Source: an uncultured Clostridia bacterium
Lineage (GTDB): Bacteria; Bacillota; Clostridia; Oscillospirales; Ruminococcaceae
Assembly (NCBI GenBank): GCA_947389015.1
Contig: CANDVA010000022.1
Coordinates: forward strand, 1-41,450
DNA: 41,450 bases
Reading direction: 5' to 3'
A program made the translations under genes and the position numbers. The stretch's first letter is position 1. Each line of letters opens with the position of its first letter. Shown here one piece after another: positions 7,635 through 38,959 of this stretch. The notes beneath the pieces were generated by a model. The model worked only from the letters and a program-made list of their open reading frames with translations, was not told the DNA's origin and made no database searches.

Positions 7635-8031
7635 AAATCAGAATTTAGTGCAGTAATTCCGCAGCTCCCTCCGCGCGAAGCGCGGAATAAAAGTTTTTCG
7701 TCAAGCCTTTTTTCAAAAAGGCTTGCGGAGTGCAGAGGCAGAGCCTCTGCACAGGTTTGGGCAGAAGCTGCCTCCAAGGCGGCAGCCCAAAACGCCGTGC
7801 GAAGCACGGCAGTTGCGCATATAGTGCGCAACATAGGCGCGGAGCGCCGCACCGCCGCAAAGCGGCGGAACAAAAAAAGCGCTAAAAGGGCTTGGGGAAA
7901 AACTCTTGTTTTTCCCCAAATCGGTGGTTTTGCCAACAGGCAAAATCGCCGATAAATCACTTTTTTCTGCCGGTGGCAGAAAAAAGTGATCCGCGCTCCG
8001 AGCAACACCTTGCTGTTATAAATTCTGATTT
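7635..8031. repeat. Multi-hairpin repeat element, copy 1 (397 bp)
   Basis: The ends are a 13-bp perfect terminal inverted repeat (AAATCAGAATTTA at 7635-7647, its complement at 8019-8031). The interior is almost entirely back-to-back hairpins: 7670-7686, 7702-7725, 7731-7751, 7760-7772, 7794-7810, 7812-7832, 7836-7848, 7852-7868, 7892-7919 (11-bp stem), 7921-7952 (14-bp stem with two wobbles) and 7956-7990 (perfect 16-bp stem, 3-nt loop). The right part, 7869-8031, recurs at 38798-38959; the left part differs in sequence but follows the same design. No transposase is encoded, so it could be a non-autonomous MITE- or BIME-like element. Open frames inside it are by-products of the hairpins. It fills the gap between the GH5 and chemoreceptor promoters. 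Confidence 0.85.
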
Positions 8032-38665: not shown

Positions 38666-38959
38666 AAATCAGAAATTAGCGCATAAACTCTACGACCAAA
38701 AAATCGGGATTCCAAAGGGACCGGTCCCTTTGGCGGGATGCAAGGGCAGAGCCCTTGCCGGGTTCGGGCGGAGCCCGAAACGCCGCGTAGCGGCAAAAAC
38801 AAAAAAGCGCTAAAAGGGCTTGGGGAAAAACAAGAGTTTTTCCCCAAATCGGCGATTTTGCCAACAGGCAAAATCGCCGATAAATCACTTTTTTCTGCCA
38901 GTGGCAGAAAAAAGTGATCCGCGCTCTATGCAACACCTTACTGATATAAATTCTAATTT
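38666..38959. repeat. Multi-hairpin repeat element, copy 2 (294 bp)
   Basis: The ends are imperfect inverted repeats, AAATCAGAAATTA (38666-38678) and TAAATTCTAATTT (38947-38959). Hairpins: 38712-38733 (a perfect 22-bp palindrome), 38740-38758, 38763-38779, 38782-38794, 38820-38847 (11-bp stem), 38849-38880 (perfect 14-bp stem, AACA loop) and 38884-38918 (perfect 16-bp stem). The right part (38798-38959) matches 7869-8031 of copy 1 closely; the left part is different and shorter. No protein is encoded. It lies between a terminator and the TetR gene, and its last 2 bp form part of the TetR stop codon. Confidence 0.85.

Follow-up and report, generated by a model that had tools for sequence, protein, structure and literature searches.

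Two hairpin-rich stretches in the 41,450 nucleotides of DNA analyzed here (the window, one complete contig of an assembly of 2.9 Mb in 49 contigs) belong to a family of small DNA elements that are apparently mobile and occur in many copies in an uncultured Oscillospiraceae-type bacterium. We consider it likely that the family is a non-autonomous transposon of the MITE type that is mobilized in trans and has captured a hairpin array present genus-wide. As in other MITEs, the elements are short, carry no transposase, end in terminal inverted repeats, and occur as many dispersed copies, of which the two examined for this are missing at the same locus in many relatives. If this explanation holds, a single pair of transposon ends serves as the carrier of genes in some cases and of a ready-made hairpin array in others, and there is more than one route by which the array family spreads across the genus.

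Two related elements in the window

The first copy (positions 7635 to 8031, plus strand) is a complete type A element of 397 bp with right end R1, located between a GH5 gene on the minus strand and a chemotaxis-receptor gene on the plus strand. Its left terminal inverted repeat (7635 to 7647, plus strand) reads AAATCAGAATTTA, with GCAGTAA 2 nt further in, and the minus strand reads AAATCAGAATTTA again at the right end (8019 to 8031). Between these ends, on the plus strand, the left module holds the hairpins TCCGCGC-GAA-GCGCGGA, CAAGCCTTTTT-TC-AAAAAGGCTTG, and GTGCAGAGGC-AGA-GCCTCTGCAC (7670 to 7752), the latter two being of a kind seen order-wide. It continues with the type A hairpins GCTGCC, GCCGTGC-GAA-GCACGGC, GTTGCGCA, and CCGCCGC-AAA-GCGGCGG (7767 to 7868). 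Next comes a core that is found across the genus, consisting of GCGCTAAAAGGGC and the hairpin TTGGGGAAAAAC-TCTT-GTTTTTCCCCAA (7879 to 7919), whose apical loop is inverted relative to most copies. Two covarying hairpins follow: hairpin 2, ATCGGTGGTTTTGCC-AACA-GGCAAAATCGCCGAT (7920 to 7953), which has two G·T pairs in this copy, and hairpin 3, ATCACTTTTTTCTGCC-GGT-GGCAGAAAAAAGTGAT (7956 to 7990).

The second copy (38666 to 38959, plus strand) is a complete type B element of 294 bp, also with right end R1. It lies between a GH26 gene (plus strand) and a TetR-type gene (minus strand), and its right edge falls at the stop codon of the TetR-type gene. Its left (38666 to 38678, plus strand) and right (38947 to 38959, minus strand) terminal inverted repeats each contain one mismatch. 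The type B left hairpins CCAAAGGGAC-CG-GTCCCTTTGG, GCAAGGGC-AGA-GCCCTTGC, and TTCGGGC-GGA-GCCCGAA (38712 to 38779) are followed by the core with its usual loop orientation, AAGA (38807 to 38847), and by covarying hairpins 2 and 3 (38848 to 38918), all on the plus strand.

An earlier, sequence-only reading of this DNA had proposed that the two stretches are copies of one family with differing left modules, that both lie beside glycoside hydrolase genes, and that they contain no real reading frame. These proposals were borne out. The copies share 13-bp inverted ends and a right part of 186 nt at 89% identity, the GH5 gene adjoins the first copy and the GH26 gene the second, and the frames that overlap the first copy are not gene-like in their own right.

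It had also been claimed that nearly every base of each copy lies in a perfect hairpin. Perfect hairpins were defined by a stem of at least 6 and a loop of 2 to 8, and 200 dinucleotide shuffles of each copy served as the control. Coverage was 55% in the first copy and 53% in the second, compared to shuffle means of 5% and 3% and shuffle maxima of 18% and 14%, and the median 300-bp piece of the window scored 0. Strong enrichment is thus confirmed, whereas full coverage does not hold when perfect stems only are counted. Folding z-scores for the first copy are -15.5 and -14.4 for RNA from the plus and minus strands, and -15.0 and -12.5 for the corresponding DNA strands. The inner part of element types A to C is a serial array of 6 to 10 hairpins, and one type D copy elsewhere is 20% perfect hairpin, just over its shuffle maximum of 19%.

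Copies and types across the genome

Both window copies were used as queries against the whole assembly, and the matches were then sorted into types. There are 22 complete copies genome-wide, including the two in the window, and 17 additional pieces at contig ends, some of which may be two halves of one copy. With these pieces, the family marks many of the contig breaks of the assembly. Complete hairpin-array elements are about 289 to 439 bp long and comprise types A (6 copies), B (12 copies), C (2 copies), and D (2 copies). When left type and right end are considered jointly, the copies divide into A-R1 (1), A-R2 (5), B-R1 (9), B-R2 (3), C-R1 (2), and D-R1 and D-R2 (1 each). All four combinations of A or B with R1 or R2 are seen, and modules therefore recombine between copies. 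In copy B7, hairpin 3 is itself chimeric, with each arm derived from a different type.

Gene contexts are mixed. Among 24 elements with both neighbors called (3 of them other inserts, described below), 10 are in divergent, 4 in convergent, and 10 in tandem settings. Orientation judged by GC skew is positive in 24 of 42 cases. The same genome also holds array fragments that lack inverted ends, at G000:C26:6035 (L071) and C19:90 (L080), the latter located upstream of a gene start.

Shared ends, target site, and other inserts

The common inverted ends consist of AAATCAGAATTTA, followed in many copies after a short spacer by YAGYAA, which is strict in 14 of 22 left ends and 16 of 22 right ends. 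All 22 complete copies have recognizable inverted ends with 0 to 4 mismatches in 12, the right end of copy B12 being partly lost. With at most one mismatch, the 14-bp end TAAATTCTGATTTA occurs at 66 sites in the genome, versus 1 for a reversed control. For a longer form of the end, this genome yielded 34 sites and the control 0, and among 42 relatives G013 and G014 have 1 site each.

Reading outward from 25 complete elements, the flanking base is A at 36 of 50 ends and the next base is C or T at 38 of 49. This pattern is a palindromic RT|AY site preference, with T and A on both sides of 12 of the 25 elements. Both a TA preference and a duplicated TA would be compatible with it, the duplication being only suggested. 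No target duplication longer than TA was found above chance in these 25 elements, and conservation is lower at the flanking base (36 of 50) than in the ends themselves, where 566 of 600 bases are kept.

The same ends also surround inserts of other kinds. A 368-bp element without a hairpin array is present in two complete copies (G000:C16:8100-8467 and C28:25423-25790; L091 and L092) and in four more pieces at contig ends (C6, C13, C37, and C38). The ends also bound a 361-bp cassette (G000:C7:85577-85937; L089) containing a 101-codon open stretch, which has no normal in-frame start codon and may be broken. In relative G013 (C60; L132, about 1092-1523), they enclose a gene cassette whose frame reads by eye like a lipoprotein. 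Neither of these two cassette proteins has a match in Pfam. Because the same ends bound unrelated inserts, they would mark the mobile unit, with the hairpin array as its passenger. By eye, both small cassette proteins resemble exported small proteins.

Lone 14-bp end-like sites adjoin five genes, which read as GNAT, HTH, NUDIX, YhfC, and HTH genes (L090, L095, L097, L098, and L099) and are not transposases. In the GNAT case, the stop codon falls within the site. None of the five sites has a convincing partner end, one possible partner with 2 mismatches being located 123 bp on in C20, and these sites may be solo ends or chance occurrences.

Presence and absence at matching junctions in relatives

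A relative was judged at a junction if, among the matches listed, both flanks lay no more than 1 kb apart on one contig and strand. This definition leaves out G010 and G013 (B11 flanks more than 10 kb apart) and G009 (B4 flanks 3 kb apart); G029, whose own array aligns at B11, is also left out. The sequence-only reading had proposed a mobile non-autonomous element and had named two findings that would speak against mobility, namely a lack of further copies in the host genome and the same sequence at the same place in all relatives. The first does not apply, given the 22 complete copies and 17 pieces. For the second, copies B11 and B4 were examined, and among the matches listed, 15 of 24 judgeable relatives have no room for the 294-bp element at the B11 junction, and 8 of 9 have no room for the element at B4. 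Mobility was therefore not refuted, and it is supported by the many dispersed copies, by the shared ends around other inserts, and by this absence at the same junction. The B11 and B4 insertions do not look ancestral to the genus.

Copy B11 adjoins a gene whose product, judged by eye, resembles a MazF-type endoribonuclease. In G020, the flanks of this junction are about 85% identical, with 20 bp between the aligned blocks and no array; the junction differs by more than the element, and an exact empty site was not obtained. The nine longer spacers at B11 hold other arrays (G016, G031, and G019), an array of opposite orientation (G012), a gene whose product resembles a methyltransferase by eye (G028 and G037), or other sequence without the core (G038, G026, and G017). 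At the same junction, G029 has a different, inverted-duplicated array without AAATCAGAATTTA-type ends. Arrays are thus present at B11 in this genome and in 5 of 25 relatives. Either arrays were received there repeatedly or one has long been held in part of the genus, and some of the pattern could reflect the turnover of old arrays instead of new insertions. The ninth relative judged at B4, G014, carries another inverted-repeat sequence that is large and imperfect (G014:C80:9650-10250; L235). Copy B1 did not yield an empty site: its TetR-type gene is unmatched in the 10 kb examined in each of G014 and G020, where gene order differs.

The hairpin array in the genus and order

The core-hairpin pattern has 3 to 46 sites in each of the seven genus members sampled (19 in this genome, 46 in G010, 11 in G031, 42 in G001, 34 in G002, 3 in G016, and 25 in G042, where a perfectly palindromic site would score on both strands). 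In contrast, it is absent from 389 further genomes belonging to the family, and a reversed control gave 0. The CAAGAG loop is present in every listed place. In the copies read, the order of the array is kept, starting with a T-run/A-run hairpin and proceeding through GGGGCAAAGCCCC-like hairpins, short GAA-loop hairpins, and the core, often followed by a long and variable perfect hairpin.

The same module order is seen in two MAGs, JAAVID (Oscillospiraceae) and CAMWVP (uncultured Clostridia), which were taken as G029 and G014 from identical sequence. Here, 4 of 21 copies end in a similar but different sequence, AAATTATAATTT, and all five AAATTATAATTT sites in 125 kb are at array ends. The other copies have no end of this type, though many are truncated. 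Judged by its distribution, the array is older than the transposon that carries it in this species.

Beyond the genus, the first two modules served as a 75-bp query, which had matches in 58 of 394 genomes of the order, this genome included, representing 43 of 168 genera; many of these matches are weak as well as short, and the arrays in those genomes are mostly different ones. Simple versions of the modules therefore seem, from such matches, to be common in the order. Gene orientation shows no clear bias around 27 loci with order-wide modules. For relatives' arrays, a sample of 22 loci was drawn that excludes five loci of this genome and sites near a locus end, and in 17 of them the gene downstream is directed into the array, by crude ORF calls in which some frames span the array. 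One genome of the order sample, G330, gave 569 first-look candidates for the first two modules, 2 of which were scored, and possibly has a very high copy number. In loci from G002, G010, and G042 (L247-L269), several arrays have a similar GTTTTGAGCGGSRAACAAC-like stretch on both sides, in the same direction and sometimes in tandem.

Stem pairing and loop inversions

Right modules were compared in two alignments. Alignment A1 contains 27 of 37 right modules, 19 from this genome and 8 from JAAVID/CAMWVP (21 distinct); the modules left out were a false match (L006) and eight copies whose core loop is longer. Alignment A2 contains 12 distinct modules from G002, G010, and G042, with identical ones dropped. 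Over the 43 pairs of alignment A1, 99.6% of cells are paired and both sides have changed in 14 pairs, and over the 25 pairs of alignment A2, the values are 99.7% and 9 pairs. None of 500 shuffles scored as high on four of five measures for A1 or on four measures for A2, although related sequences can beat these shuffles even without structure. The remaining measure, further pair types, was unexceptional in A1 (186 of 500) and was matched by 34 of 500 shuffles in A2. When partners were slid by 1 to 3 columns, pairing fell to between 37% and 58% in these alignments. The earlier suggestion that the folded form matters is thus upheld to the extent that pairing is kept across species through compensatory stem changes, which do not tell RNA, single-stranded DNA, and DNA copying apart.

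Parts of the array evolve differently. The sequence and loop of the core are kept across species while the outer stems drift, and in the 12 distinct copies from G002, G010, and G042, the core varies only at a single pair, where the change is compensated, and at a single outer base that is unpaired. Single copies carry inverted loops, in the core (copies A1 and B8), in hairpin 2 (copies A2, B6, and B12), and in a GAA hairpin (copy A5), with AAGA becoming TCTT, AACA becoming TGTT, and GAA becoming TTC. Because an inversion of 4 nt is hard to reach by point changes, such loops point to arm exchange in DNA. Arm exchange can also restore stems, and therefore covariation alone is no proof of selection. 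Loop orientation is one-sided overall (AGA 39 versus TCT 0; GAA 35 versus TTC 2). Together with the conserved core and loop, this suggests that selection acts too, though descent from a few master copies could give the same result. Wobble cells number 6 G·T versus 3 A·C in copies from this genome and 23 versus 2 in relatives. Counted by distinct hairpins, the values are 3 versus 3 and 5 versus 2, some of them spurious, and no strand is clearly favored. Stems, loops, and core evolve at differing rates, and a genome can contain up to dozens of copies. The family therefore offers a natural experiment on whether selection or arm-to-arm copying keeps bacterial palindromes perfect, two causes that are usually hard to separate.

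Searches for a mover and for known families

The sequence-only reading had considered a Y1-type, REP-associated transposase, an idea that gained no support in this genome. Its Y1_Tnp matches (G000:C34:16855 and C25; L164-L166) comprise no more than a gene interrupted by internal stops and two partial genes, all IS200-like by eye. Mobilization in the manner of REP/BIME by TnpA_REP was rejected, as no intact REP-type Y1 gene was found in this genome. The architecture of the elements also differs from that of REPs, which are palindromes of 20 to 40 bp with a GTAG or CGTC tag. An IS630-type mover, as for RUP, was likewise set aside after no match to DDE_3 (PF13358) was found in the assembly, which is 96% complete and may be missing repeated genes. 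No autonomous parent was recognized among the ends that were read.

Rfam 15, at gathering score, gave no matches in the window or in 12 loci from other genomes. A type A element had no match in plasmids, neither it nor the 368-bp element had a match in phages, and the core patterns had none in viral contigs. End-pattern matches in two viral contigs were dismissed as chance, since both have the same sequence around the site with one exact end each, and the further end site has 2 mismatches and is in the wrong order. Nothing in the libraries searched (Rfam, plasmids, phages, and viral contigs) names the family, and searches of open-licence PMC papers turned up no such family.

Proposed mechanism and alternative explanations

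We propose that the inverted ends AAATCAGAATTTA, often with YAGYAA, are probably recognized by a DDE-type transposase supplied in trans, which would insert the element at RT|AY sites. In this species, the transposon would have acquired its passenger, a multi-hairpin array that is also found on its own throughout the genus. Its copies would then diversify by swapping hairpin modules with one another, and arm-to-arm copying within hairpins would invert loops and help to keep stems perfect. The perfection of the stems would be in part selected, and the conserved core hairpin may be the recognition site for a putative protein. Several observations weigh against this proposal: no autonomous copy and no DDE_3 gene was found in this genome, T and A stand on both sides of only 12 of 25 elements, the base next to the ends is kept less well than they are, YAGYAA is strict in only part of the ends, the right end of B12 is partly lost, the G020 junction is not an exact empty site, and arrays lacking such ends occur at the B11 junction in G029 and, as fragments, in this genome. 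As for the role of the array itself, we lean toward a recognition site or a folded element.

There is some chance, well short of even, that the array is instead a structured RNA or mRNA element (protecting transcript ends, forming an RNase III site, or causing attenuation), maintained because of how it affects neighboring genes. Strong compensatory change, conserved loops, and the 17 of 22 relatives' loci in which, by crude ORF calls, the downstream gene points into the array all speak for such a role. However, contexts in this genome are mixed (10 divergent, 4 convergent, and 10 tandem), there is no clear orientation bias around the order-wide modules, wobble pairs favor no strand clearly, Rfam has no match, and loop inversions are DNA events. 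A purely mechanical origin, in which replication or repair copies one arm from the other and keeps hairpins perfect with no selection on structure, is unlikely. It would account for the pairing of more than 99% of stem cells, for the chimera inside hairpin 3 of B7, and for inverted loops in single copies, which point to arm-to-arm copying or inversion, but not readily for a core and loop that are conserved across species while outer stems drift. The one-sided loop orientation also argues against it, though a few master copies could yield such tallies.

We find it just as improbable that the array is itself mobile, as folded single-stranded DNA moved by a core-recognizing enzyme resembling TnpA_REP, with the ends being incidental or a second layer. 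The absence of an intact Y1 gene from the matches in this genome weighs against this, as do the recognizable inverted ends on all 22 complete copies (only in part at the right end of B12), whereas the 3 to 46 core sites in each of seven sampled species, the CAAGAG loop in every listed place, the near-invariant core in 12 distinct G002/G010/G042 copies, and the arrays of relatives that lack AAATCAGAATTTA-type ends would favor it. Even more doubtful is the reading in which the arrays form a class of structured mobile DNA that spans the order and is served by a dedicated recognition enzyme, for which the core (GCGCTAAARGGG plus the CAAGAG-loop hairpin in the genus) would be the handle. The same low standing applies to the corollary that stems drift freely as long as they are paired and that species fit different ends to the array, here those of a conventional transposon. 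If true, such a class would be a single-strand-dependent element family outside the world of REP/RAYT and IS200/IS605.

Comparison with known repeat systems

The trans-mobilized transposon that we prefer would work like BOX- or RUP-type repeats with a cargo like that of mobile insertion cassettes (MICs). The BOX elements of streptococci are described as intergenic repeats built from modules, fixed at the ends and variable in the hairpins between them, with a predicted tight fold in which the ends are paired (PMC3049150). As far as this description extends, and comparing descriptions rather than sequence models, the present family is similar in its modular layout, fixed ends, and variable inner hairpins. 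It differs in the serial array of types A to C, in the core shared across the genus, and in having ends that enclose inserts of other kinds as well. The pneumococcal RUP is characterized as short and non-autonomous, with inverted repeats at its termini and a target of the TA type (PMC2229807). The present family resembles RUP, so described, and other TA-target MITEs in all of these respects. Unlike RUP, for which the account gives a matching IS630 relative, it has no DDE_3 gene among the matches found here, and its TA duplication is only suggested.

MICs of the IS231 type have one pair of ends without a transposase around different cargo. The cassettes at C7:85577-85937 and G013:C60, with the same ends around cargo without a transposase, are comparable, whereas most inserts found here are hairpin arrays and no parent IS was recognized among the ends read. 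REP/BIME sequences with TnpA_REP are, in the parts of the literature drawn on here, numerous intergenic palindromes with possible single-strand recognition (PMC2817692 and PMC3733652). The present family shares these traits as outlined there, but no intact Y1 gene was found here, and the complete elements have inverted ends and lengths of about 289 to 439 bp. Double-hairpin elements of fungal mitochondria are mobile, consist of back-to-back hairpins, and undergo compensatory stem changes. They are like the present elements in their hairpin arrangement and stem changes and unlike them in being mitochondrial and much shorter.
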